Shown here: positions 1 to 33,205 of the stretch, piece after piece | Layout: each line of letters starts with the position of its first letter | Numbering within the stretch: position 1 is the first letter of the stretch | NCBI GenBank assembly: GCA_016788605.1 | Contig: JAEUSO010000006.1 | Coordinates: 1 to 33,205, forward strand | Length of the DNA stretch: 33,205 nucleotides | Direction: 5' to 3' | Source of the DNA: Candidatus Kapaibacterium sp. | Lineage (GTDB): Bacteria > Bacteroidota > Ignavibacteria > Kapaibacteriales > NICIL-2 | Notes under the pieces: generated by a model | What the model saw: the letters and a program-made list of their open reading frames with translations, nothing else | What the model was told of the DNA's origin: nothing | Databases searched by the model: none | Translations under genes and position numbers: made by a program

Positions 1-450
1 CGGCTGATATGCCATGCCCGGTACGCGAATAGCGGCATCGGGATTCAGGTTATGCCCGTAGTTGTAGTTCCACTGATAGAAATCCACCATTGACAAAATG
101 CCAAATATGATAAATGCGTATGTGGCAATGACAAGAAGAAACCGTTTTCCCGCCACTCCTGTAATACTGAACAATAACGCAAATGCAGCAAGAATATAGG
201 GCAGAATAGTGAACTCAATAAAGTCCTCGGTATGTAATGTCTTCATGCCAATATAGTGATTCAATCCATTGATAGTATTGACATCGCCCCCGATATTGTT
301 TGCCGATATAATGAGTGCCAACCCTTCGGGATACTGCGGAGCATCAAGCTCGATACGCCAGAGCGGAACAAAGATTGCAACTGCAATGAGCAGTCCGGCA
401 ATTATACTGAGGATACGTGACAACGGGGTTGTAGTAGCTGTATTTTTCAT
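1..450 (-). CDS. Nos-cluster membrane protein, partial (3' end off the window)
   Basis: Reading the minus strand from the ATG at 448-450 gives 150 residues with no stop before the window edge. The N-terminus (MKNTATTTPLSRILSIIAG) runs into a membrane segment at about residues 11-30. A soluble stretch follows containing DAPQYPEGL and INGLNHYIGMK, and then at least two more membrane segments at about 82-98 and 104-122. I recognise the DAPQYPEGL...GLNHYIGM signature as belonging to a membrane protein found downstream of nosZ in nos clusters of Bacteroidota and relatives, usually near nosL and nosDFY. Its biochemical role is not established; a part in copper delivery or NosZ maturation is inference from neighbourhood. 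It lies 135 bases after nosZ on the same strand, so it is probably cotranscribed. The rest of the nos operon should continue off the left edge. Confidence 0.8.
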   Translation of the reverse strand, partial: MKNTATTTPLSRILSIIAGLLIAVAIFVPLWRIELDAPQYPEGLALIISANNIGGDVNTINGLNHYIGMKTLHTEDFIEFTILPYILAAFALLFSITGVAGKRFLLVIATYAFIIFGILSMVDFYQWNYNYGHNLNPDAAIRVPGMAYQP

Positions 451-498
451 TATGTTATTAGAAAGTTTCTGATGCAATCAAGTACTGTAGTTACACAA

Positions 499-534
499 AA
501 GGGGCGCAACGATGGAACATCGAAGACACCCCTT
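499..534 (-). other. Two-tier hairpin between nosZ and the next nos gene
   Basis: AAGGGG at 499-504 pairs with CCCCTT at 529-534. Inside it CGATG (510-514) pairs with CATCG (518-522) around a 3-base loop. No U-run follows on either strand, so it does not look like an intrinsic terminator. It may be an mRNA-stabilising or processing structure that adjusts expression between nosZ and the downstream gene. Function is inference. Confidence 0.4.
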
Positions 535-585
535 GATGATTATCAAACATTCCGCTACCTGCGTAGTATGCTGTGCAAACCGTTC

Positions 586-2586
586 CTACTTCGCGCTTGC
601 AGTCGGATCAGGAGCAGGTTTGTTTTTGCCCGTACTGAACATAAGCGGTACTGAACTTCCGGCTGGTGATACACGAACATATCCTTGCATTTCTTGGTGT
701 AAAGCACTACAGAAGTCGGTACAGTAAATTGGATAGATACCCACGCGGTCGGGAATCCATTTTAAGGTTGATGTCTCGCCCGGCATGATAAGAAGCTCTG
801 CATTAAGTGCGCCTTTAACAGCAAATCCATGAGGTACATCCCAATCTTGTTCAAGGTTGGTAATATGGAAATACACCTCATCGCCAAGTTTTACACCTTC
901 GATATTATCAGGCGAGAAGTGTGAGCGTATTGAGGTCATGTAAATATGAACTTTATTCCCTTCGCGCACAACTTTCGACTCCGCCTCTCCCTTAGCAGCA
1001 TAGGGGTGCTTATTCTCGTCAATCTTAAAGAACTTCAGAGAGTTCTTTGCAACTAACTCAACCGGACATGCCTGTGCATAATGCGGCTCGCCAATTGTCG
1101 GGAAGTCAAGGATTAGTTGCATTTTATCACCACTGATATCATACAATTGGGCACTTTGAGCAAGCTCAGGTCCGGTTGGTGCATACCTGTCTTTTGTAAT
1201 TTTATTATATGCCACCACATACTTTCCAAAGGGCTTGCGTGAATTGCCACCCGGCACGCATAAGTGTCCGATAGAATAATAGGTGGGAACCCTGTCGAGT
1301 ACTTTAAGATCTTTGATATTCCACTTCACAATTTCGGATGATACGAAGAACGACGTATAGGCATTTCCATTACCGTCAAATTCTGTGTGCAGAGGACCTA
1401 AGCCGGGTTTTTGCACTTCGCCATGCAACGCCGCTTCGTATTTCACCACGGGAATACCGTCGTACTTACCGTCGAACTGCGAGGTACTGATGGCATTTTG
1501 GAGTTTATCAAAACTGAAAACCGGAATCAATGCCGCCAGTTTACCGCTGCCGACAATGTACTCACCAGTCGGGTCAACGTCGCAACCGTGCGGTGATTTA
1601 GGACATGGTATCAAATAGCATATTCCCTCAAGTGACATAGCGTCAAGCACTGTAACACTTGTTTTAATCTCGCTTGTTGCAGTATGTGTACTTTCATTAT
1701 AGACATTATGTGCATAGCGAACCGCTTGTTTTTCGCCTTTACCTTGCTTGATATACTCTTCCGCTTTTTTCCAATTGACTGCGAGCACAAAGTCCTTGTC
1801 TTTTTGCGACGCATTTACTTCCAAAAGGGTGTTTGCCTGTTCGCTGTTGTAGCACGAGAAAAAGAACCATCCGTGGGATTTACCTTTACCAGCGCGGGCT
1901 AAGTCGAAGTTCACACCGGGCAAGCGTAACTGGAATGCACTATCCATTGCACCGGATTGCTTATCCACGCTGATAAAGCTGATATGTCCTTTGAAATTTT
2001 GTTTATATGTATTGATAGGAATATCACCATTCACATTGTCAGGCGGAACACTAAAGCGCGTACCGGCTACAACATATTCTGTGTTTTCGGTAGCAAACGG
2101 CGATGAGTGATTACCGGCACTGTTCGGCAGTTCAATGATCTCCGATGTGCGGAATGTTTTTAAATCAATCCGCGCTACGCGAGGGGTATTGTTGCCATTA
2201 CCAAAAACCCAGCGTCCGTCCACTTCGCCATTGGTTTGCGATAGCTCGGTATGATGCAAGTCATCCCAAGGCACAAATCCATGCGATGTATTGAGCATTG
2301 GTTTTGTTTCTTCGCTGTATCCCCAACCTTTTTCTGGATCAACCGAAAAAACAGGAATAACACGCAAGAGACGACCGCTCGGAAGACCATAGACGCTCAT
2401 CTGACCGCTAAATCCGCCACTGACAAAATTGTAGAACTCATCATATTTTCCGGGCGGCACGTATGCTTTTACAGCTGCATCACCGCTTACAGCTTCCGAC
2501 GCGCCTTTGGGTTTGCATGAGTTGATACCAAAAGAGAGTACACTGATTGCCATAATTGGCATGATGACATTTATCAAGCGTTTCAT
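586..2586 (-). CDS. nosZ: Nitrous oxide reductase NosZ, clade II, lipoprotein-type
   Basis: This is the terminal enzyme of denitrification; it reduces N2O to N2 in the periplasm with electrons entering at a CuA centre and catalysis at CuZ. The CuA motif is plain near the C-terminus (CTDFCSALHQEMQGY). CuZ-region motifs are visible in order: DDLHHTE, HGCDVDP, GPLHTEFDGNGNAYTS, GHLCVPGG, EPHYAQACP and DVPHGFAV. The N-terminus carries a Sec/lipoprotein signal with SFGINSC as lipobox and no twin-arginine motif, which is the clade II hallmark. I chose the ATG at 2586 (MKRLINVIM, 666 residues) because it gives a basic n-region; an in-frame ATG at 2610 adds eight residues and cannot be excluded. A cytochrome c gene sits 57 bases upstream of the chosen start, and a nos-cluster membrane protein gene follows. 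The length is near the usual 630-680 residues and no key ligand is obviously missing. Confidence 0.97.
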   Translation of the reverse strand: MKRLINVIMPIMAISVLSFGINSCKPKGASEAVSGDAAVKAYVPPGKYDEFYNFVSGGFSGQMSVYGLPSGRLLRVIPVFSVDPEKGWGYSEETKPMLNTSHGFVPWDDLHHTELSQTNGEVDGRWVFGNGNNTPRVARIDLKTFRTSEIIELPNSAGNHSSPFATENTEYVVAGTRFSVPPDNVNGDIPINTYKQNFKGHISFISVDKQSGAMDSAFQLRLPGVNFDLARAGKGKSHGWFFFSCYNSEQANTLLEVNASQKDKDFVLAVNWKKAEEYIKQGKGEKQAVRYAHNVYNESTHTATSEIKTSVTVLDAMSLEGICYLIPCPKSPHGCDVDPTGEYIVGSGKLAALIPVFSFDKLQNAISTSQFDGKYDGIPVVKYEAALHGEVQKPGLGPLHTEFDGNGNAYTSFFVSSEIVKWNIKDLKVLDRVPTYYSIGHLCVPGGNSRKPFGKYVVAYNKITKDRYAPTGPELAQSAQLYDISGDKMQLILDFPTIGEPHYAQACPVELVAKNSLKFFKIDENKHPYAAKGEAESKVVREGNKVHIYMTSIRSHFSPDNIEGVKLGDEVYFHITNLEQDWDVPHGFAVKGALNAELLIMPGETSTLKWIPDRVGIYPIYCTDFCSALHQEMQGYVRVSPAGSSVPLMFSTGKNKPAPDPTASAK

Positions 2587-2643
2587 AGGATTGCTCTGAG
2601 TAGAGTACATAGTGATTAGAGTGTTTATAAATTGATGTTCAGC

Positions 2644-3123
2644 TTATTTCACACCATCGTTCTGGCGCATAAACTCAAATACTTGCCGTGCTTCATCATC
2701 CGAAAGATTCTGATTAGGCATACGCATAAGGCATACCTCAAGCTGTACCTGAAGTTCCGGGTCTTTACTAATCATCGGGTCTGGATTGGTAATAAAGTTC
2801 ATCAACCACTCCGGCTTACGGCGCGATGTGACTCCCTGCCACCCCGGACCGACAATCCGATCATCTTTCAGTGAATGACATGCCGCACATTTCACCTCAC
2901 GAACTTCAGCACCCGCTTTTGCCATTGCAACATCAAGGGTAGCTCCCACTTTCACATTCTCGGCAGTAAATTTCCCCTCGCCACGGTGCGGGTCATATTG
3001 ATTTGGATCTTTCTTTTCTACGTCGTTCTTCTGTGCACTCTGTGTATCGGTTTTGGGCGAATCGCCGCATGAACCAAGAAAAATCAGGAATGAGAAGAAT
3101 CCTGCAATGACTATTGCTCTCAT
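2644..3123 (-). CDS. Cytochrome c lipoprotein, likely electron donor to NosZ
   Basis: A 159-residue exported monoheme cytochrome. The chosen ATG at 3123 starts MRAIVIAGFFSFLIFLGSC, a lipoprotein signal peptide whose lipobox cysteine is residue 19. A longer frame upstream adds residues without signal character. After a charged linker rich in Asp and Lys comes the single heme site CAACH, then GPGWQGV, and near the end MRMPNQNLSDDEA, which supplies a probable Met axial ligand. It is first in the nos operon, 57 bases before nosZ. That position fits the NosC-type or donor cytochromes that feed electrons to clade II NosZ; the exact partner is inference. Anchoring to a membrane by lipidation would place it beside lipoprotein NosZ. 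Confidence 0.9.
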   Translation of the reverse strand: MRAIVIAGFFSFLIFLGSCGDSPKTDTQSAQKNDVEKKDPNQYDPHRGEGKFTAENVKVGATLDVAMAKAGAEVREVKCAACHSLKDDRIVGPGWQGVTSRRKPEWLMNFITNPDPMISKDPELQVQLEVCLMRMPNQNLSDDEARQVFEFMRQNDGVK

Positions 3124-3186
3124 AATTGTTTGTGTGTTACGGTAAAACAGTTTTTCTACTGCGAAATTCAGTTGAAGAGCAATCAT

Positions 3187-3205
3187 TGATTTATGACTCA
3201 AATCA
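3187..3205. promoter_or_regulatory. Inverted repeat in the divergent nos / Cys-protein promoter region
   Basis: TGATTT (3187-3192) and AAATCA (3200-3205) form a perfect 6-base inverted repeat with a 7-base spacer. It lies about 65 bases upstream of the cytochrome c start and about 85 bases before the divergent Cys-rich gene. The arms resemble CRP/FNR-family half-sites, but the spacing does not fit the canonical TTGAT-N4-ATCAA box, so the regulator is unknown. Confidence 0.35.
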
Positions 3206-3289
3206 TATAATCAAAAAAAAGAAAAGCATATCTTTGTTCCACGTAATCATGCGTAATCACGCTCATAACAACGTTACAATTACTCTCCT

Positions 3290-3745
3290 TTGTCACCCAA
3301 AGCAGTACATATCGAGCATATATCATTTGCACTTGGTCAGGATAGTCGGGAACGGTGGATTCGCTTTGCTGCCATACTCACATTCATCACGATGCTTGTG
3401 CATGTGCATACATCGCTCATCGTATGGTCATGGTATTGGCTTGATAACGGAAGAACGGCAACACAATATTGCGTGAACACCGAATCGGATTGTTGTAAAG
3501 GAAAATGCTACGTTACAACGGCACTTGAAAAAAGTGAGGATGGTTCCAACTCAACCACTCCGTCGCAAGCGGGACAAAAACCGACTCAAAAAAATGAACG
3601 CGAAGTGCCGTACATAAAACAACCGTACAGCTTTTTCATAGCAACGTTGTATTATAGTCCATCTCGAATGTACGATATATACAAAGGTGAACTTCTACAT
3701 GGATATACACATATACCGACGAAACCACCTGAATCATGCTCATAA
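3290..3745 (+). CDS. Small Cys-rich membrane protein, possibly copper-related
   Basis: The open frame has no in-frame ATG before 3395. The TTG at 3290 is my tentative start because starting at 3395 would cut the hydrophobic segment. That segment (RFAAILTFITMLVHVHTSL, about residues 25-50) is followed by a cysteine cluster, QYCVNTESDCCKGKCY, and a Ser/Thr/Gln/Lys-rich tail. I recognise the CxN...CCxGKCY pattern from small uncharacterised Bacteroidota proteins with one N-terminal membrane helix and a short Cys motif after it. Function is not established. Because it is divergent from nosZ and upstream of mbnP/mbnH on the same strand, metal (copper) handling is a reasonable inference. It is separated from mbnP by 239 bases containing a strong hairpin, so it may be its own transcription unit. 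Confidence 0.6.
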   Translation: MSPKAVHIEHISFALGQDSRERWIRFAAILTFITMLVHVHTSLIVWSWYWLDNGRTATQYCVNTESDCCKGKCYVTTALEKSEDGSNSTTPSQAGQKPTQKNEREVPYIKQPYSFFIATLYYSPSRMYDIYKGELLHGYTHIPTKPPESCS

Positions 3746-3832
3746 GATATTGAGGTAGTGTGCGCTTTCCTGAACATCACAATAGTGTCAGTTTAATACA
3801 TTACAATCAGAGTTAGGTACACTATGTCAATA

Positions 3833-3854
3833 CCCCGAAAGATTTGTTTCGGGG
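3833..3854 (+). other. Perfect 8-bp hairpin upstream of mbnP
   Basis: CCCCGAAA at 3833-3840 pairs perfectly with TTTCGGGG at 3847-3854 around a 6-base loop. It lies 88 bases after the Cys-rich gene and about 130 bases before mbnP. No U-run follows on the plus strand, so an intrinsic terminator is doubtful. It could be an mRNA 3'-end structure for the upstream gene or a leader element for mbnP. The rest of 3746-3984 shows no open frame with coding character. Confidence 0.35.
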
Positions 3855-3984
3855 AATGAGACATGTTGGCTTATTACAACATAAATATATCATCAGGATA
3901 CCGTCATATCTACGCATAACCCGTACGGTGGCAACACGTATTGGCGCATCCTACTTCACAACATTACATTCTCATTTAATCACT

Positions 3985-4791
3985 ATGAAACATCAACTAA
4001 ACATACTCAAGCTCATCATACTCATTGCTATAATATCCGCCGTTATAACCGGATGCTCAAAAGAAACTCCGGTTTCCGCACCTGACCCAACTACAACGGG
4101 GTCGATTGTCTTGGAGTTCGATAATATCGCAGGTGACAGGCAATTAGAACTTAACAGCACAGTGCCATACCAGAACGCACTTGGAGAGAAGTTTTCCGTT
4201 ACAACGTTCTCGTATTACATCAGTAATATCAAGCTCCAAACTGCAACAGGCGAGACCTATACCGTACCGCAAGACAGTAGCTATTTTTTGATAAAAGAGA
4301 GCGACGCCGCCTCACAAAAAATCACATTACGCAATGTTCCTTCCTTAGATTATACCAGTGTTTCATTTACCATAGGTGTTGATAGTATCCGCAACACGAT
4401 GGATATTGCAAAACGCACCGGCGTTCTCGACCCCGCAAACGGTATGTATTGGTCATGGAATTCAGGATACATCTTTGTAAAAGCAGAAGGATCAAGTGCC
4501 TCAAGTAGCAACGGTTCATTCCGTTATCATATAGGTGGTTTCGGTGGTATCACATCACAAACAATCAATAACATCAAATCAATTATAGTTCCGTTTGGAA
4601 ATAGCGCTGCAACAGTGCGCCCTACGGTAAAACCGGAAGTCCACTTGTTGGTTGATGTATTAAAGATATTCAACGGTACGGCGAACGTAAGTATAACGTC
4701 AAATCCGACCGTGATGTTCACTCCATACTCTACAACTATTGCTAACAATTACAGGGGAATGTTCTCGGTGGATCATGTTCACAATGATTAA
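3985..4791 (+). CDS. mbnP: MbnP-like copper-binding lipoprotein
   Basis: 268 residues. The ATG at 3985 begins MKHQLNILKLIILIAIISAV, a lipoprotein signal ending ITGC. Mature-protein motifs match the MbnP family: SYYISNIKLQ near residue 80, SYFLIKE, the Trp-rich MYWSWNSGYIFVKAEG, FRYHIGGFGG, and a histidine-containing C-terminus VDHVHND. MbnP proteins were first described in methanobactin operons, where the partner heme enzyme MbnH oxidises a tryptophan to kynurenine and this enables copper(I) binding. Here the mbnH-like gene follows after 19 bases, so the pair is intact. No methanobactin biosynthesis genes are visible, as is common for MbnP/MbnH pairs outside methanotrophs. The copper role in this organism is inferred from the family and from the divergent nosZ. 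Confidence 0.88.
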   Translation: MKHQLNILKLIILIAIISAVITGCSKETPVSAPDPTTTGSIVLEFDNIAGDRQLELNSTVPYQNALGEKFSVTTFSYYISNIKLQTATGETYTVPQDSSYFLIKESDAASQKITLRNVPSLDYTSVSFTIGVDSIRNTMDIAKRTGVLDPANGMYWSWNSGYIFVKAEGSSASSSNGSFRYHIGGFGGITSQTINNIKSIIVPFGNSAATVRPTVKPEVHLLVDVLKIFNGTANVSITSNPTVMFTPYSTTIANNYRGMFSVDHVHND

Positions 4792-4810
4792 CACTTTACA
4801 TGGAGTATGT

Positions 4811-5920
4811 ATGAAAACAAAACTTCAATATAGCTCTCTTACTTTGATGCCCGCGCAATGCGTGCGGGCATCAGCGGTTGTGTTACGGGTATGTACACTA
4901 ATCCTTTGCTCAGTGCTCTTGGTTTCATGCTCGGACTCTGTACAGAATACTCTTGATACACCAACGGATGTACGCTTAGCCGTACCTTCGAATTTCCCGC
5001 CAATACGATACAACCTTGCCGCTAATCAAATCAGTACCGATGGATTCATCTTGGGAAGAACCCTATTTTACGATGGTACACTTTCCCGTGATGGAACAGT
5101 GAGTTGCGGCTCTTGTCATCAGCAATCATCAGCATTTACGCATCATGGTCATGACCTTAGTCACGGTATTGACGACAAATTGGGAAATCGTAATTCACCA
5201 CCGGTGATGAACCTTGCATGGCAACCGCACTTTTTTTGGGATGGTGGTGTGCATGATTTGGATTTATTCTCTATTGCGCCGATTGAGAATCCGGTGGAAA
5301 TGGACGAGAAGTTAGACAACGTCTTGGCTAAACTCCGCTCATCGCCGAAGTACCGCTCTCTTTTTGCTAAGGCATTCGGCTCGGAAGACATCTCAACAAG
5401 TAGATTTCTAAAAGCACTTTCGCAGTTCATGCTGATGTGTGTGTCGTCGCAATCGCGGTACGATTCCTTTGTTCGTCATGAAGGTGCGGTTTTATCAGAA
5501 CGCGAGCGTTTGGGTCGTACACTCTTTTCCCAAAAATGCGGCGCGTGTCACTCTACCGACCTCTTCACCGATTTCTCGTTCAGAAATAATGGTTTAGAGC
5601 AACGCACACCTTTTGATAGCGGTCGCGCCCGTATTACGTTACAGCATGAAGATATTGGCAAATTCAAAGTGCCGAGTGTTCGCAACATAGCTCTGACGGC
5701 TCCTTACATGCACGATGGTCGAATCCGCACATTGGAAGGTGTTCTGAACCATTACCGTTTTGGTATGAAAGTCACTCCTAACATTGATTCATTCTTCATA
5801 CGGCAGGGTAAGAATCCCGGGATTGACATGACAGACAACGAAGCTCAACTCATAATTGAGTTCTTGCATACCCTGACAGATACCGACTTCACTACACGAA
5901 GAATTTTATCGGAGCAATAA
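4811..5920 (+). CDS. mbnH: MbnH-like di-heme peroxidase (MauG/CcpA family)
   Basis: 369 residues. The ATG at 4811 is preceded by GGAG five bases upstream, which decides it over an in-frame ATG at 4739 that overlaps mbnP. A signal peptide with a probable lipobox (LLVSC) is followed by RTLFYDGTLSRDGTVSCGSCHQQ, the first CxxCH heme site. The second heme site is LFSQKCGACHSTDLFTDF, with the family motifs FSFRNNGL, KVPSVRNIALTAPYMHDGR and LEGVLNHY. This is the bacterial cytochrome c peroxidase/MauG fold. Coupling with mbnP points to MbnH, which uses a high-valent di-iron state to modify a Trp of MbnP rather than simply removing peroxide. A plain CcpA-type peroxidase is the alternative. The next gene starts one base after its stop, so the two are translationally linked. 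Confidence 0.88.
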   Translation: MKTKLQYSSLTLMPAQCVRASAVVLRVCTLILCSVLLVSCSDSVQNTLDTPTDVRLAVPSNFPPIRYNLAANQISTDGFILGRTLFYDGTLSRDGTVSCGSCHQQSSAFTHHGHDLSHGIDDKLGNRNSPPVMNLAWQPHFFWDGGVHDLDLFSIAPIENPVEMDEKLDNVLAKLRSSPKYRSLFAKAFGSEDISTSRFLKALSQFMLMCVSSQSRYDSFVRHEGAVLSERERLGRTLFSQKCGACHSTDLFTDFSFRNNGLEQRTPFDSGRARITLQHEDIGKFKVPSVRNIALTAPYMHDGRIRTLEGVLNHYRFGMKVTPNIDSFFIRQGKNPGIDMTDNEAQLIIEFLHTLTDTDFTTRRILSEQ

Positions 5921-5921
5921 C

Positions 5922-6854
5922 ATGAAAAATCTATTCCGGCTCATCATAGTTTCTATCTTTTTACACTCGCAGGTATATGCGTGTGAAATATGTGGTTGTG
6001 GTGCAGGTTCGTTGACTCAAGGTATATTGCCTCAAGGGGGGACAAATTTTGTCGGTGTGCGGTATCGTTCATCAGCGTTCGATTCTCACGTATTGCACAG
6101 TGCCTCTTTACGAACAAGCGAGCATTTTCAGACAACAGAATTTTGGGGACGATACTATCTATCGCCTTCGCTTCAGATTGTGGTTACATTACCGTATAAC
6201 ATCAATTCGCAACGCACAAGCACGCAAGAGTTCATTCGACGAGGTCTTGGTGATGCTTCGCTTACAGCACTTTATTCAGCATGGGTATCGCAACCTCAAA
6301 GCAGTAACGATACGGTCTGTTCAGTTCCGGCGATCACCCACGCTCTTCTTATTGGCGGTGGACTTAAAATCCCCACAGGTTCGTATCAATTCAATCCATA
6401 TTCTACAACCGAAGTTGCAAATGCCAACTTTCAACTTGGTACGGGTAGTTGGGATATACTCATCAGTGGAAATTATACTATCCGAGGTGAAGTGTATGGA
6501 GCAATGGTTGATGTGCAAGCCCGTATTCCCACGGTGAACTCCAACGGCTACCGTTTCGGTAATCGCGCAATGACAACGTTTGCAGGGTTTGCTTTACTCT
6601 CGCTTAGTAGCGATATCCGTATGATGCCACTTGTTGGAATAAGTTCGGAAATCAGTATGCAAGATATACGGCAAAACAAGACGGTTGCTGAAACAGGAGG
6701 AGTTACCGGATTTGCACTATTGGGTACGGACATCTATTTCATGAACACATTAAGCATCGGATGTACTGTATCAATTCCAGTTGCATCACAGATGGCAGAT
6801 GGCGAGATACGCCCGGCACCACGGGTAACGATTCAAAGCGCGTGGTTGTGGTAA
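5922..6854 (+). CDS. Secreted beta-barrel-like protein with N-terminal CEICGCG cluster
   Basis: 310 residues; ATG at 5922 with GGAG upstream inside the end of mbnH. A signal peptide (MKNLFRLIIVSIFLHSQVYA) is followed immediately by CEICGCGAGS. The remainder is rich in alternating aromatic/hydrophobic stretches typical of outer-membrane strands: VGVRYRSSAF, EFWGRYYLSP, GLGDASLTALYSAW, LLIGGGLKIPTGSY, GTGSWDILISGNY, and a terminal aromatic (AWLW). I recognise a conserved but uncharacterised Bacteroidota family with this CxxCxC start and barrel body, found beside MbnP/MauG-type genes. The Cys cluster at the mature N-terminus could bind metal, or its first Cys could be lipidated (the VYAC site is a poor lipobox). 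A copper-transit role through the outer membrane is inference. Confidence 0.75.
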   Translation: MKNLFRLIIVSIFLHSQVYACEICGCGAGSLTQGILPQGGTNFVGVRYRSSAFDSHVLHSASLRTSEHFQTTEFWGRYYLSPSLQIVVTLPYNINSQRTSTQEFIRRGLGDASLTALYSAWVSQPQSSNDTVCSVPAITHALLIGGGLKIPTGSYQFNPYSTTEVANANFQLGTGSWDILISGNYTIRGEVYGAMVDVQARIPTVNSNGYRFGNRAMTTFAGFALLSLSSDIRMMPLVGISSEISMQDIRQNKTVAETGGVTGFALLGTDIYFMNTLSIGCTVSIPVASQMADGEIRPAPRVTIQSAWLW

Positions 6855-16039: not shown

Positions 16040-18466
16040 TTACTTCACGATAACAAGCGGAGCGAATGTGCTCGACGTACCTGTCGAAATAACAACGCGG
16101 TATGAACCTGCTGCAAGTGCACTTGCATTAACCGGTACTGTATGGCTGCCCGGAGCCGACACTTCATTGCGAAGTACCGAAACCGTATTGCCAAGTACGT
16201 CTGTAATGCGGATGTTCACCTGTGACGGAGCATTACCATTAACCGAGTATTTTACAGTTGCATCGCTTGCTGCCGGTGTTGGATATACACCAACACTCAG
16301 TACACCGTCGCCGCTTGTACCCGGTTCAACCGAGTTAACCATGTCGGCAGTAATAATAAGTCCGATAATACCGTCGCCTGATTTAGCATTTGATTGAACA
16401 GTAGCCGACGAAAGAACATCTTCCGCTTTGAGCAATTTTGCTTGGATACCAAGGGCAAGAGTTTGTCCCGGCTTCACTGTTGCAGGGAATGTACCGCCCG
16501 AAACGATAGAGAAGATGTTAGCATCTGAACCAAAATCAACGCCTGTGATAATCAAGTCACCATTCCCTGTGTTTTTCAGGTTGGCGGTCATCGTCTTGGT
16601 TTGATTAATCTTCATCGTACCATAGTTGATGGTGTTATCGCTTGAACCTTCAGCTGTAACTTCAATGCCAGCCGATGGGGCTGCACCCGCGCCTTCAAGC
16701 CAATCAAGGGCTTTCTTAAAGAGACCGTTGACTTGTTGTGCATTCGAGAACATTTCCGGCGTAGGCATGAAGATAACACGTGACTTAGACAGAGTTGAGT
16801 TGAATGCTATCGTCGAATCGAATGCTGATGGACGAAGCAGTGCTTTAGCTACAGTTCCATTTGTAATACGGAACTTCGAGTTGTAATACTGGAATGTTGC
16901 GGCTGATGAAAATCCTTTGGAAATATCATTAGTATTATATCCAATGAATGTTGCATTTCCACTACCCTGACCAACCCAGCAACGACCAAGATATCCAACA
17001 CCCAAATCGTTGTATGCAGCCGAGCTAACACTGCTGATAGTACCAAACGTCGGCTCGCTACCGATAACCATAACATTCACACCGCGATTCCACTGTTGGC
17101 GCATACCTGTAACAATCGTTGCATTGACTTGCGCGCCATAACCGAAGTTCAGAATGATATTTTTCAAGTTCGGCATGTTATTCATTGCGGTATAGGCATT
17201 CAGATACTGTTCGCCGATATAGAGATATTGCTCGTCGTTTCTTCCTGCTTGTTTGATAGCAGATGTGAGTTGACCGCTAAAGCCGAACTCTAATGATTCA
17301 ACATTTTTATGAAGTACCACGAGCGGGCTGACAGGATATGTCATGTCGGGATTACCCTTTTCTGCCATAGTCATTGATGCACCGGCAATAGCAATTTTCG
17401 CATCAGGCGAAAGTTGAAGGGTCACTGTTGATGTTCCGTTTGCGGGAACTGTAACTTCATTACCTTCTTTAACTGTTGCTTTCCAACCTGCAGGAGCATC
17501 CAATGATTTTTTCGCAGCAAAAACATACGTCATCGGATTATTTGTCTTATTGGTAATTGTCAGCGGCATTTCACCGTTTTCATCTTTACCTGCCAATGCA
17601 ATTGACGGTGTTGACTGCACACTAACCGCACCATTAGTATTGACACCGCCTAAGGGTTCTTCGATTGCATTCAGGATTTCACGTTGGCTCGCATCTGCAC
17701 CATCATGGCGTGTTACAACGGCAACAAGCGAAATGCGCTTGGTATTCCAACGTGGGTCAAGTGGAATATGAAAACTTGTTGTGTAGCTTTCACCTGCATT
17801 TACACCTGTTTGCGGTGTTATACCTTCCGCGCCCCATGCACCTGCTGCATATCCACGAAGAACATGACGGTGAACAAAACCGACAATTGGGTCGGGCTTG
17901 CTGTAGTATGGGTGTCCAACAAACTGGGAGTTATTTGCAATGAAGTTACGTTGATTCCAACCAGTGATATTAGGACCAGAGAGAGAATCTTCGATAACCC
18001 ATACATTCATACGAGTTGGACCATCAACAGCACTTGTGAAATCCGCTTTCACTTTTACACGGATAAAACCGCCGTTTTGGTCAACTTCCGACTTAACAAT
18101 CTGAATACCCACCGGAGCTTGAACAGTCAAACGGTCGGATACAGCAGCATCCCATTGACCGCGATCAAGGGCAAGAGTACCACCAACAGGAGTGCGGTCA
18201 ACCGCACCACTCGGATATCCTGAAACAAAACTGAGCAGAGGGGCTGACGCGGGTATTTGCATTGAGTCACCTTGATGGACAGTAAGAACGATAACTTTAT
18301 CGCCTTGCTTTTTCTTGATAGCATCCATCTTAACAAAACCATCCACACACCAGCCGCACCATGCGCCTGTGAATTCTTCAAGAACAACTCGTTTGGTTTG
18401 TGCTTGAATGTGTACGGCAAGCAGTACAAGCGTTGCTACCGCTGCCAACATCGTACGAAATTTCAT
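16040..18466 (-). CDS. T9SS-exported Omp28-like thioredoxin-fold protein
   Basis: 808 residues. GGAG seven bases before the ATG at 18466 supports the start; the signal peptide is MKFRTMLAAVATLVLLAVHI. Directly after it comes VLEEFTGAWCGWCVDGF, a thioredoxin-like CxxC (Cys37, Cys40) as in Omp28-related outer-membrane proteins, and VIVLTVHQGDSMQIP. The middle holds beta-sandwich regions, including a choice-of-anchor/Hydin-like repeat (INYGTMKINQTKTMTANLKN, TGNGDLIITGVDF). The last 85 residues or so are a type A T9SS sorting domain (GVYPTPAASDATVKYSV, RITDVLGNTVSVL, SALAAGSYRVVI). The protein should cross the outer membrane by the type IX system and be attached or released. Redox activity of the WCGWC site is plausible but unproven. 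It is monocistronic. Confidence 0.88.
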   Translation of the reverse strand: MKFRTMLAAVATLVLLAVHIQAQTKRVVLEEFTGAWCGWCVDGFVKMDAIKKKQGDKVIVLTVHQGDSMQIPASAPLLSFVSGYPSGAVDRTPVGGTLALDRGQWDAAVSDRLTVQAPVGIQIVKSEVDQNGGFIRVKVKADFTSAVDGPTRMNVWVIEDSLSGPNITGWNQRNFIANNSQFVGHPYYSKPDPIVGFVHRHVLRGYAAGAWGAEGITPQTGVNAGESYTTSFHIPLDPRWNTKRISLVAVVTRHDGADASQREILNAIEEPLGGVNTNGAVSVQSTPSIALAGKDENGEMPLTITNKTNNPMTYVFAAKKSLDAPAGWKATVKEGNEVTVPANGTSTVTLQLSPDAKIAIAGASMTMAEKGNPDMTYPVSPLVVLHKNVESLEFGFSGQLTSAIKQAGRNDEQYLYIGEQYLNAYTAMNNMPNLKNIILNFGYGAQVNATIVTGMRQQWNRGVNVMVIGSEPTFGTISSVSSAAYNDLGVGYLGRCWVGQGSGNATFIGYNTNDISKGFSSAATFQYYNSKFRITNGTVAKALLRPSAFDSTIAFNSTLSKSRVIFMPTPEMFSNAQQVNGLFKKALDWLEGAGAAPSAGIEVTAEGSSDNTINYGTMKINQTKTMTANLKNTGNGDLIITGVDFGSDANIFSIVSGGTFPATVKPGQTLALGIQAKLLKAEDVLSSATVQSNAKSGDGIIGLIITADMVNSVEPGTSGDGVLSVGVYPTPAASDATVKYSVNGNAPSQVNIRITDVLGNTVSVLRNEVSAPGSHTVPVNASALAAGSYRVVISTGTSSTFAPLVIVK

Positions 18467-29686: not shown

Positions 29687-31636
29687 CTACCGCACCACGC
29701 TTACCAAGCACTTCACCGGTGCGGTTGCGCCGCGCAAGGTGATGGACACAACATACACGCCTGCCGATAAACCGCTTGTGTTGATGCGTGTAGTTGCGCC
29801 GCTGTTTTGCTCAATGCCGCGAAGGTCGGTCAGCGTGATACTTGTTGCTTCCGCATCGGCGGGTAACGAGACCGTGATGAAGTCCGTTGCGGGGTTGGGT
29901 GTGATAATGATGCGACCCGCTTCCGTCTCCACAACCGATGTGGTTTCTTCCGTTGTGAACCGCCATGTGTCCGACCACACGCCCGCGCCCAATGCACCGA
30001 TTGCACGAACCTGCCACAAGTATGATGTCTTCGGTTCGGCGGTGATGCTGCGCGATAATGCGGTTACACTGCTGTCATCAACTACCACCGTTTGGTCGGC
30101 GGTCTTTTTTACCACCACGTGATACTTCTCGGCATTGACATCGCCCTGCCACACAAGGTTTGTTGCCACAGGTTGCGATTGGCTGTTATCCGGCGGCGCG
30201 CTGAGTTTGAGCTTTGCTGGGACTTGCGGCGCAGTGGTGAACGACCATGTTTCCGACCATGGACTTGCCAACTTTCCATACCGTGTTCGTGAACGCCAAT
30301 AGTACGTAGTGTTAGGTTGCAGTGCGTTTATACGACGCTGTGATGTGCGAATACCGGTATCCAAACGCACATTGGCTGTAAAGTCGGACGTTGTGGATAG
30401 TTGCATATCGAATCCCGTAAATCGGGGTTCCGCCGACCACGCTACATCCACCCTCTCGGATAACTGCTTAACCGACTTATTCGGCGGCTGCGACAGCACA
30501 GGCACGGAGAGTTCAGTCGTGCTGCGTTTGGTTTTGTAGATACCATTGCCAAGTGAACCGACGTATAAAAATCCCGATGTATCAACACACATACTCACGA
30601 GATAATTATTACCCACGCCGTTTGTGTCTATCGCTGTTTCCATCGTTGCGTAGTTGAATATCCGGACACCCCGGAATTTTGTGTGATACACATCGCCCAT
30701 ATAATTCGCACACAGATCCCATGTTAAAGGATTTTCATCATAGGGTATTATGTATCTCTCACCTACTTTCCAAACAGTATCACCCAAATTACTATTTTTT
30801 CCATACAGTTGTAATTGAGCGGCAAACCGTGTCCCTGTACTGTCTCGGCAGTATGCGGTAATATCATCTATTTCACGCTCTATGCCAACCTTCCATGTCC
30901 TGCATCCATCCTTCGAGGTATGGATATTGTATTGGGCATAACAGTACATTTCTTTCGTACGCCTGTCATATTCACAAAACGTATGTGGCACTCCACCTAC
31001 TGCTGCAATCTTCGGTATCGTTTCCCATCGCTTCCCATAATCCGACGACCGGTAAATCTGACCAATAACCGTTGATGCAAAGAGTGTGTCCTTTTCACCA
31101 GCCACTATATCACGAATCTCGTTCACTTGATTTGAATCACTTCTTAGTGTCCATGTGTCGCCATTATCTGTCGAGGCATAGATATTATATCGTGTTGAAA
31201 CAAGCAAATCGCCGCGATGCAATCGTGCGAATCCCAACACATACTGATCTCGAAATTCTTGACTAACTTTCTTCCAAACCGTACCGCCATCCGACGATGA
31301 ATAAAAACCGTTACCCGTTACAGCAAAGAGCTTCCCGGACGGTGCATCATTGTAGAAGTTAAAGACGTATGGATTCATAAGCCCGGTCGAACTGCTTGTC
31401 CATGTTACGCCATTATCAGTCGTCCTGTGAACACTGCCACCGAACGAACCAGCCCATATACTGCCATCGGAGTGTCGCATGAGACGGGTGATATTTTTGT
31501 CTTGCAGTGATGAAGAGTATTGAAAATTTCCTCCGCGTTCCTTTTTTGTACAGAAGTAGCAAATACTATTGTAAATTCCAAAATTATTTGTTTTCTTCTG
31601 TACCCAAAACAAGCTAAAAACAAAGAACCATTCCAA
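29687..31636 (-). CDS. T9SS-targeted beta-propeller/fibronectin III protein, 5' end probably lost
   Basis: Coding character is clear from about 31500 leftward. Residues from SLQDKNITRLMRHSDGSIWA onward are repeats of sortilin/BNR type (TTDNGVTW, SSDGGTVW, STDNGDTW, SSDYGKRW), forming a partial beta-propeller. Two fibronectin type III-like domains follow, each ending WS(E/D)TW(S/R)FTT. The last 75 residues are a T9SS type A sorting domain (ITPNPATDFITVSLP, TSGLSAGVYVVSI). The frame upstream of 31500 is AT-rich, begins at a TTG (31636) and gives no signal peptide, which a T9SS substrate must have. The real start is therefore missing or shifted. The Mu-like element end lies within about 100 bases, so truncation by insertion is likely. 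Treat it as a probable pseudogene. Confidence 0.72.
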   Translation of the reverse strand: MEWFFVFSLFWVQKKTNNFGIYNSICYFCTKKERGGNFQYSSSLQDKNITRLMRHSDGSIWAGSFGGSVHRTTDNGVTWTSSSTGLMNPYVFNFYNDAPSGKLFAVTGNGFYSSSDGGTVWKKVSQEFRDQYVLGFARLHRGDLLVSTRYNIYASTDNGDTWTLRSDSNQVNEIRDIVAGEKDTLFASTVIGQIYRSSDYGKRWETIPKIAAVGGVPHTFCEYDRRTKEMYCYAQYNIHTSKDGCRTWKVGIEREIDDITAYCRDSTGTRFAAQLQLYGKNSNLGDTVWKVGERYIIPYDENPLTWDLCANYMGDVYHTKFRGVRIFNYATMETAIDTNGVGNNYLVSMCVDTSGFLYVGSLGNGIYKTKRSTTELSVPVLSQPPNKSVKQLSERVDVAWSAEPRFTGFDMQLSTTSDFTANVRLDTGIRTSQRRINALQPNTTYYWRSRTRYGKLASPWSETWSFTTAPQVPAKLKLSAPPDNSQSQPVATNLVWQGDVNAEKYHVVVKKTADQTVVVDDSSVTALSRSITAEPKTSYLWQVRAIGALGAGVWSDTWRFTTEETTSVVETEAGRIIITPNPATDFITVSLPADAEATSITLTDLRGIEQNSGATTRINTSGLSAGVYVVSITLRGATAPVKCLVSVVR

Positions 31637-31700
31637 AATTAAGTTAGTGTAGGTATAACGGACATTGTGATATTTTGGTTTTTGGTGCGGTTGGGTTGTC

Positions 31701-31765
31701 GTTTCGCGGGACAGTTGGGACAGTTGGGACAGGTTGTATGCCGTTTCGTGGGACAGTTGGGACAG
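31701..31765 (+). repeat. Clustered GGGACAG repeats at the element end, likely transposase-binding sites
   Basis: Two near-identical 23-base units start at 31701 and 31743, each beginning GTTTCG(C/T)GGGACAG. Within them GGGACAG recurs at 31708, 31717 and 31726, and again at 31750 and 31759, always nine bases apart inside a group. The two groups are offset by 42 bases, roughly four helical turns. Such arrays at the end of a transposable phage usually bind the transposase. Confidence 0.7.
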
Positions 31766-31789
31766 GTTATTTTTAGAATGACAGGGTAT

Positions 31790-32224
31790 TTATGTAAAGC
31801 TACTCGGGCGGTTTATCGTTGTATGCTCTTCTTGTTCGGCAACTTTCTGGAAATGCGGGTGTACTGTCAATGTGTCAGCGACAAGCAAGGTCAGTTTGTT
31901 CTCGCTCAATTCCTTTTCCTTCTTATCTATGAGCGCCTGTATGGTTGCCGACATGGTGCGTAGCGTGCGGAGTTCCTCTTCGTCGGATTCTACTATTTTC
32001 TTTATCTGTAATCGGTGTTCGCGTAACTCTTCAATCTTCTTATCTGTGTCGTCGGTTGAGTACCCTAATTGGCGAAGCCGCTCCCTAATTGCTGGACCAA
32101 ATGGTATAACTCCCTTCCTGTATTGGCTAACAGTAGGTGCGGACACGCCTAGTGCTTCTGCTGCTGTTTTAGCAGAACCCATGTCGGCAATAAACCTTTC
32201 AAGTATTTCTATTTCCTTAACCAC
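31790..32224 (-). CDS. Phage repressor-like HTH protein with coiled-coil tail
   Basis: 144 residues from a GTG at 32224. The N-terminus is an XRE/Cro-type helix-turn-helix (FIADMGSAKTAAEALGVSAP, then TVSQYRKGVIPFGP). Residues about 58-118 are a long charged helix (KKIEELREHRLQIKKIVESD and onward) suited to dimerisation. Reading away from the other early genes, it occupies the position of the Mu c repressor. No protease-like LexA domain is present. Its binding site is probably the inverted repeat in the divergent gap next to it. Whether it represses lytic transposition is inferred from position. Confidence 0.75.
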   Translation of the reverse strand: MVKEIEILERFIADMGSAKTAAEALGVSAPTVSQYRKGVIPFGPAIRERLRQLGYSTDDTDKKIEELREHRLQIKKIVESDEEELRTLRTMSATIQALIDKKEKELSENKLTLLVADTLTVHPHFQKVAEQEEHTTINRPSSFT

Positions 32225-32249
32225 GATGTGGATAAATAATTAGATGAAA

Positions 32250-32278
32250 CCTAAAATTTCCCTTGCTTGGAAATTAGG
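32250..32278. promoter_or_regulatory. Operator-like inverted repeat between the divergent phage regulators
   Basis: AATTTCC (32255-32261) and GGAAATT (32269-32275) are perfect inverted arms around a 7-base spacer, with CCTA and TAGG flanking outside. It lies in the 109-base gap between the repressor-like gene and the Ner/Cro-like gene, where operators of Mu-type switches sit. Confidence 0.45.
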
Positions 32279-32333
32279 CGTTACCTATTTTCGCTGTGTA
32301 ATTATTGTATAACAAATATAACACGGAGGCAGT

Positions 32334-32552
32334 ATGCCAAAGGTGAGTAATACTACGGATGGGTTTGACCCGCGTGTACTATCGAGAAACCCGTATCGAG
32401 GGATAATTCTACAGATAGCCAGAGAGACGGGGGTGACGTATCCATGTGTGTGGGGTAAGTTAAACCGCTTGCACCCAAATCCTGATACAGTTCGACGCGC
32501 GCAAGAGATCATGCGCGAGCGTGATGCACAATTAGCGGGAGCGGCAGCATGA
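32334..32552 (+). CDS. Small Ner/Cro-like DNA-binding protein
   Basis: 72 residues. A strong GGAGG four bases upstream of the ATG sets the start. A putative helix-turn-helix is seen in ILQIARETGVTYPCVWGKLN, followed by a basic helix (PDTVRRAQEIMRERDAQLAG). The size and place, between a divergent repressor and the transposase, match Mu Ner, which damps early transcription. Sequence kinship to Ner is not certain. Its TGA overlaps the next ATG (ATGA), so the two are translationally coupled. Confidence 0.7.
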   Translation: MPKVSNTTDGFDPRVLSRNPYRGIILQIARETGVTYPCVWGKLNRLHPNPDTVRRAQEIMRERDAQLAGAAA

Positions 32553-33205
32553 GTCAGATGTTGAGTGTAGAAGAGGTGGCTGTACAGTTGCATTTGACAA
32601 TAGACGGTGTGCGTAAAACACTTTACCGCAACGCTGTTGGTTACACTCAACACGGGCGGACGCGCCTGTATGATATAGCGGACGTGGTAAAGTGCTATCC
32701 TGCACTTAACGCAATGCTACGCACTGCGGGTGTTCGTGAAGTGGAGAAGGACGACGACCGTAAGCCACGCGCTGACTTCGGTGCATTGCGGAAACACAGT
32801 GCGGAACTGACGGCGATTGCAACGCGCTATGCGTTGGAGTTCTATTTGGACGCTGCTATGCCGGATTGTTACGGGGCTTGCGAGCTTGCGGTGCGGCGGG
32901 TGCATAATGAATACGCCCGCGGCTATCACAGGGAAATCGCAACGCCGGGACAGGTGTCGCGGCTGACAACGAACTGGTTGTATAAAGCGCGTATCAAACG
33001 GCGCGACAACGAGAAATCAGCCACGAAGCAAAAGTACATCGGCGACTACTGGACGGGCGGATGGCAACAGTTACACATGAGGAAGTGGAAGCAGCACACG
33101 GCGGCACTGACCGCTGCGACGGTACGGTATGATATACCTGCGATAATGGAGAGTAGTGGCAATGCGGGTCCGGGTTTTGGGTTTGGCAAACTGATAATGC
33201 TTGAC
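32549..33205 (+). CDS. Probable Mu-type transposase, N-terminal part (runs off the window)
   Basis: 219 residues without a stop to the window edge. The N-terminus is an excisionase/MerR-like winged helix (MLSVEEVAVQLHLTIDGVRK, then GRTRLYDIADVV), as found at the start of transposases and phage DNA-binding proteins. The middle is helical and basic (TTNWLYKARIKRRDNEK; WQQLHMRKWKQHTAALT). The segment ends ESSGNAGPGFGFGKLIMLD, where an aspartate ends a hydrophobic strand, as at the first Asp of a DDE catalytic core. Identification as MuA-like rests mainly on gene order and this strand; the catalytic triad is beyond the window. Other phage replication proteins remain possible. Confidence 0.55.
   Translation, partial: MSQMLSVEEVAVQLHLTIDGVRKTLYRNAVGYTQHGRTRLYDIADVVKCYPALNAMLRTAGVREVEKDDDRKPRADFGALRKHSAELTAIATRYALEFYLDAAMPDCYGACELAVRRVHNEYARGYHREIATPGQVSRLTTNWLYKARIKRRDNEKSATKQKYIGDYWTGGWQQLHMRKWKQHTAALTAATVRYDIPAIMESSGNAGPGFGFGKLIMLD

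Follow-up and report, generated by a model that had tools for sequence, protein, structure and literature searches.

Mu-like transposable phages of an Ignavibacteria order: a probable prophage left end, four-base target duplications and a transposase with a predicted Asp-Glu-Glu site

Introduction

The transposase and its ATPase are treated as the signature proteins of transposable phages, and the Asp-Asp-Glu site is held to be fixed (PMC8705779). The same source covers the B3-like phages and the transposable prophages of Leptospira, which, like the family reported here, are diverged phages of Mu type; a few inversions are known among them, Gam is found in almost all, and the Leptospira prophages are given there as having no Mor/C, just as no Mor match was obtained in the present family. 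In the wider host group, fF4 of Flavobacterium columnare and related Bacteroidetes prophages were described in PMC7761591 as elements of about 32 kb with a DUF935 portal, which they share with our family, and often with a DNA methyltransferase among the last genes. In fF4 the DDE transposase is followed by an ATP-binding protein, of which no counterpart was found in our family, and sequencing of its ends was unsuccessful (same source). A preliminary description of the DNA analysed here called transposable phages of this host group poorly described. Literature searches returned none from the host group itself. Transposable phages of Bacteroidetes have been described, fF4 being one, but that phage is reported to have a DDE transposase and an ATPase (PMC7761591).

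Phage Mu (AF083977, annotation of bases 1-6000) has the repressor gene directed leftward and ner and the transposase gene rightward, and the locus studied here is arranged likewise. Gam and the Mu-type portal are also common to both, as are TG..CA ends in three of the four genomes of the family. The family differs from Mu by Glu in place of Asp at catalytic position 2, by a target duplication of 4 instead of 5 bp, and in that no MuB was found.

Layout of the window

The window, i.e. the whole stretch of DNA analysed, is the complete contig C573 (33205 bases) of genome G000, and the phage sequence stops at the contig edge. The nearest named host record was "Ignavibacteria bacterium UBA7675", in agreement with the Bacteroidota/Chlorobiota-type host guessed in the preliminary description. 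The left end of a Mu-like transposable phage claimed there was borne out, with C573 entering the left end of a prophage in an Ignavibacteria relative. Its start had been placed at 31660; the terminus lies 90 bases further left, at 31570.

Outside the terminus, the C-terminal part of a secreted host protein gene with BNR/sortilin-type repeats and a Por-type sorting domain (29687-31565 on the minus strand, within an ORF at 29687-31636; Pfam Sortilin-Vps10, PSII_BNR and Por_Secre_tail) is interrupted by the phage, and the left copy of the target-site duplication, CTAT, occupies 31566-31569. The left terminus with end site L1 (31570-31586, plus strand) is a 17-bp terminal inverted repeat, TGTAAATTCCAAAATTA, and a second end site, L2 (31625-31641, plus strand; core ATTCCAAAATTA at 31630-31641), lies 55 bases from L1. 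The three frames of the Mu layout named in the preliminary description are all present. A repressor-type HTH protein of 144 aa (31790-32224, minus strand), with a weak top hit to the transcriptional regulators of phrog_409 (E 9e-5), is followed by a putative Ner-like small DNA-binding protein of 72 aa (32334-32552, plus strand), with the position and size of Mu ner and a weak DUF2089-HTH match (E 0.003), and by the N-terminal 219 aa of a MuA-like transposase (32549-33205, plus strand), which overlaps the Ner-like stop and breaks off with the contig, its last residue being the first catalytic Asp (..GFGKLIMLD). This transposase piece gave no Pfam or PHROG match below E 0.1, consistent with the earlier remark that the proteins are not close to Mu.

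The repeat cluster noted previously is real and above shuffle expectation, though it does not consist of terminal repeats: it is an internal iteron array of 9-bp units, GGGACAGTT, at 31697-31766 (127-196 bases inside terminus 31570; detected by TRF at 31708-31732). The best exact tandem run in 31500-32400 (20 matches at lag 33) was equalled by 0 of 500 dinucleotide shuffles. TRF reported 127 arrays over ten stretches with 309231 bases in total, and all five arrays of period 9 scoring 40 or more were located within about 300 bases of a left end, in the elements of G000, G016, G273 and G388 (the left end position of the last being our own reading). The unit sequences of these period-9 arrays are unrelated between elements. 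An iteron array was present in 4 of 6 L ends examined; at the L end on contig C127 of G029 a 13-bp unit is found instead, and the one on C151 of the same genome has none. In G016 the repressor and early genes face away from L, and the array is still at L. We infer that the array serves the left end in cis, possibly in the manner of an enhancer.

Right end, target duplication and interrupted host genes

Contig C188 was reached by a terminase search of the window's own genome. It carries the right end, TAATTTTGGAATTTACA (18345-18361), the exact inverse of window positions 31570-31586, and outside it the same four bases CTAT (18362-18365); 17 matching bases between the ends were reached by 0 of 300 shuffles. 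Adjoining this right end, C188 holds the N-terminal part of the interrupted host gene, including a signal sequence. When the phage and one CTAT were removed and C573 was joined to C188, the frame of the host gene was open over 953 aa. The two host gene halves and the CTAT copies place the window and C188 in one insertion. Most of what the preliminary description had looked for beyond the contig edge was recovered, namely the remainder of a transposase core and Gam on contig C604, and phage structural genes (Mu-type portal, terminase, capsid and tape measure) together with the matching 17-bp inverted right end on C188. Of the MuB-like ATPase and the 5-base target duplication that it had expected, the former was not found and the latter proved to be 4 bases.

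CTAT stands directly outside both copies of the terminal repeat in G000, and likewise on either side of the element in G016 (outer repeat GGAGCGTTCACTAATTA) and in G273 (terminal repeat TGTCA..). In G029, five ends starting with TGTG.. were found, with GTAT and ATAT outside the two L ends and GTAT, GTAG and ATAT (direct orientation) outside the three R ends; a sixth match, on C48 with two mismatches, was excluded for lack of a second site. Two of the six possible L-R pairings agree in all four bases, leaving the third R end unpaired, and the two matching joins gave open frames of 146 and 579 aa. The latter encodes a peptidase of subtilisin type; its catalytic parts lie on different contigs, and it aligns across the junction with 1wmd. 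Unmatched G029 pairings can be open too (up to 422 aa), and weight was therefore placed on this alignment and not on openness.

Hence the duplication measures 4 bp in all three elements for which both ends are available (G000, G016 and G273) and in the two G029 pairs, and TA forms the middle two bases in 11 of 11 flanks (two each in G000, G016 and G273, five in G029). Known target duplications are 5 bases for Mu and 6 for B3 (PMC8705779), from which the 4 bp of our family differ. The 5-bp sequence AATAC was also considered as the duplication and was dropped, as it occurs in G000 only, while in each of G000, G016 and G273 the perfect repeat is abutted by CTAT, and G029 is also compatible with 4 bp; both G000 joins are in frame (950 and 953 aa), so the reading frame does not discriminate between AATAC and CTAT.

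The ends are TG..CA in G000, G273 and G029 and GG..CC in G016. At L, two sites lie 55 to 57 bases apart in G000, G016, G273 and G029. At R, sites were located at 0, 22 and 74 in G000, at 0, 22 and 88 in G016, at 0, 21 and 56 in two of the three G029 R ends (0 and 56 in the third, at the mismatch level used), and at 0 and 21 only in G273. In Mu, R1 and R2 are 22 bases apart, and the R sites of the family begin with a like spacing; the L-site spacing of Mu differs from that of the family. For the element of G089, ends were searched for and none were found.

Transposase and catalytic residues

A protein search of 61 genomes (the window's own and 60 relatives) gave the transposase in three (own, G016 and G029), with frames of 615 to 678 aa in G016 and G029. 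A profile built from these found C604 in the own genome, whose minus strand starts inside the transposase, about 60 residues further on, and runs for 374 aa. Since the profile search revealed no other N- or C-terminal transposase piece of the family in this genome, one gene with a short gap across C573 and C604 is the simplest reading. Full-length homologues of the window transposase gave short HTH model matches or none at all in Pfam and PHROG.

The gene set aligned for the catalytic residues comprised 41 rows: six family genes and 35 others, the latter being 30 loci (best matches to phrog_310), the outgroups G388, G089, G664 and G576, and MuA. The 30 ordinary loci are the best loci from 157 of 391 genomes that matched phrog_310. 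The window piece was kept outside this set, as it stops at position 1 and residue 2 lies beyond the contig edge. Around catalytic residue 2, the family has MEN or LEN, while the others have D at that place, mostly in DNG. All six family genes have Glu at position 2, where each of the 35 others has Asp. Position 1 is occupied by Asp in all 40 rows that include it (the C604 row does not), and Glu stands at position 3 in every one of the 41 rows. By alignment, the triad of the family transposase thus appears to be Asp-Glu-Glu, unlike the D, D, E of Mu-like phages. With mean pLDDT values of 48 and 43, two predicted structures were too uncertain to use, and the assignment of the triad accordingly rests on the alignment. 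Literature searches brought up no report of a DEE transposase or of Asp replaced by Glu.

A tree calculated from the 41 rows unites the six Glu genes in one group (support 100/99), to which G388 (99/95) and G089 (100/99) are the closest branches; MuA is one of several long branches. When the family was compared with MuA alone, hhalign covered the C-terminal part only, with a probability of 12% or less. The link to MuA runs via the sister branch G089, which matches the PHROG transposase phrog_310 at E 1e-22.

A separate locus of the own genome (G000:C99:8896-10884, L077) holds a canonical Mu-type transposase with the DNG motif and, directly behind it, a 316-aa Walker-A ORF; it probably represents an ordinary Mu-like prophage.

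Early genes and the search for a MuB-like ATPase

Among the ordinary relatives, 24 of 30 loci have a Walker-A ORF directly following the transposase (roughly 1.0-1.55 kb scanned), as compared with 0 of 6 family loci in the corresponding place. The single Walker-A motif within 6 kb of the family transposases is located 5.1 kb downstream in a gpF-like gene (G029 C348), and the Walker-A ORFs in the scanned stretches were confined to terminase, tail genes, the gpF-like gene and short or antisense frames. No Walker-A ORF was seen near the transposase of G388 (2.5 kb scanned) or G089 (6 kb scanned) either, so that the loss of MuB looks old; these two elements resemble the family in this respect and differ from it in having the canonical Asp at position 2. 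When 58 proteins encoded by G016, C604 and G273 were scanned with Pfam, 11 families were matched, with no AAA family and no Mor, and MuB of Mu as positive control was recovered at E 4.9e-34; of the 49 families in the PHROG scan, 25 were covered. As judged from these searches, the family appears to be without a MuB-like ATPase.

Gam was identified on C604 (PF07352, E 9.7e-29) and accounts for 3 of the 58 proteins (G016, C604 and G273). Another C604 gene downstream of the transposase had no Pfam match; the G029 protein in that place matches ParB_N, and from its place and start the C604 gene is taken to be ParB-like. GemA and Mor, the usual markers of the Mu group, gave no Pfam match, and the assignment of a 211-220 aa protein at a possible GemA place as GemA is unsupported (no Pfam match). 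Many small early genes are without a match.

Structural genes, gene order and probable sibling phages

On C188, terminase (phrog_38, E 1.7e-52), capsid (phrog_212, E 1.5e-12), tape measure (phrog_1533, E 5.3e-33) and the Mu-type portal DUF935 (PF06074, E 1.8e-17; 3e-18 in G016) were assigned. The names gpF and gpG are our own, given from place and similarity within the family, and Pfam and PHROG back gpF weakly. In G273 and on C127 of G029 the order is L, repressor leftward, early genes rightward to gpF, gpG-portal-terminase leftward, then capsid and tail genes rightward. Compared with Mu, the terminase-portal-gpG block of the family is reversed, and the tail genes or the early block are rearranged in some elements. 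G000 resembles G273 in its early block, but has a tail gene with the adjoining gene inserted between the early genes and gpG, and R close behind the tape measure. In G016 (C38:18335-51851) the repressor-to-gpF segment, lying between L and gpG, is turned round, owing to which the transposase gene is not adjacent to L, and the ends are intact with CTAT on both sides; the gene order of the G089 element (C1, about 2.72-2.75 Mb) is as in G016. G089 is a one-contig genome, all other element genomes being draft assemblies. A reading of the G016 element as a broken prophage with truncated gpF was dropped, given its intact ends and a short gpF-like stretch also on C604.

Just inside the R end of G016 lies a gene read as an adenine methyltransferase (L014, 18456-19238), and 1 of the 58 scanned proteins matches MethyltransfD12. 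Mu has mom at its R end, the place of this gene.

The ends of C604 and C188 share an overlap of 1418 bases (L022 1-1418 and L043 1-1418) with 88.8% identity. The two G000 variants of the tail gene differ at 9, 4 and 84 sites by codon position, nearly always at the third. From these sequence comparisons, C604 and C188 come from two closely related phages or strains in one bin, under purifying selection. Because the overlap is only 88.8% identical, C604 may derive from a sibling phage or strain and not from the very copy that starts in the window.

Range of the family

The family was found in four genomes of one order (G000, G016, G273 and G029) with six transposase genes. Besides G000, 5 of 391 genomes were hit in the class scan (G016, G273 and G029 with Glu, G388 and G089 with Asp), 2 of 395 in the phylum scan (G576 and G664, both with Asp) and 4 of 123 in the order scan, the class, phylum and order sets overlapping. 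Four loci obtained from a search of named genome contigs proved to be the same G016 and G029 contigs. Scans of viral contigs gave no relative, nor did a phage collection for which sister-branch proteins were also used as queries. G029 alone holds three different Glu genes and at least five ends, with two pairs showing clean duplications, and different elements occupy different host genes. Very probably, then, the window closes on a temperate, transposable Mu-like phage, seen at its left end and inserted in a host gene, which belongs to this family of four genomes in one order. The family is undescribed and extends transposable phages into this host group.

Proposed mechanism and alternative readings

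In the proposed cycle, the repressor would keep the early genes off. The transposase would bind the end repeats, pair L and R and nick the 3' ends. Their joining to the target would take place at TA steps, with a stagger of 4 bases and without the help of a MuB-type ATPase, the Glu presumably serving in the metal site. Gam would protect the ends, lytic growth would proceed by repeated (replicative) transposition as in Mu, and the late genes would package. As to how this state arose, we hold tentatively, and with somewhat less than even confidence, that the lineage lost its target-capture ATPase, shortened the stagger to 4 bases at TA and then swapped the second Asp for Glu while remaining active; in building the transposition complex, the part of MuB or of the Mu enhancer may be taken by the left-end 9-bp iterons together with the ParB-like protein. 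If true, a natural Asp-Glu-Glu, MuB-free family would offer a ready test of the role of the second Asp and would also probe unaided target choice by a MuA-type enzyme.

The uniform Asp at position 2 in the 35 relatives could also mean that the prophage family is real and that Glu leaves its transposase weak or dead, with the elements being relics moved or kept by another enzyme, for which the canonical Mu-type transposase with its Walker-A neighbour on C99 would be a candidate in G000. Against this stand the six Glu genes, all open where sequenced, the conservation of Glu in a clade with long internal branches, and the three different genes, at least five ends and two clean duplication pairs of G029. 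The differences of 9, 4 and 84 between the G000 tail-gene variants point to phages under selection, and end repeats vary between the elements of different genomes, as would be expected if each transposase reads its own ends; we consider an inactive enzyme quite improbable.

A plain Mu-like phage, whose target-capture ATPase is too diverged to be seen or is borrowed in trans, is unlikely as well. Diverged proteins can escape homology search, many small early genes are unmatched, and the canonical locus in G000 could supply MuB; yet the stretches scanned contain no Walker-A ORF beyond those listed above, MuB is easily detected by the same Pfam scan (E 5e-34), and none was seen in the sister branches G388 (2.5 kb scanned) and G089. 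Terminase, capsid and tape measure are not by themselves diagnostic of transposable phages, and they would equally suit a conventional non-transposable prophage or a genomic island merely standing beside a MuA-like gene. That reading is hardly credible, in that a single junction combines end sites of Mu type with the duplication, the restoration of host genes and the order repressor-Ner-transposase, and the host genes hit differ between elements.

Further repressor and operator candidates

A further divergent repressor/Ner-like pair is located on G000:C111 (1414-2096 of L101); its repressor is 32% identical to that of the window, and the pair probably belongs to a further prophage. In G016, a 10-bp tandem repeat, GTACACGACG, lies between the repressor and ner genes (L008, 7054-7084) and is an operator candidate.
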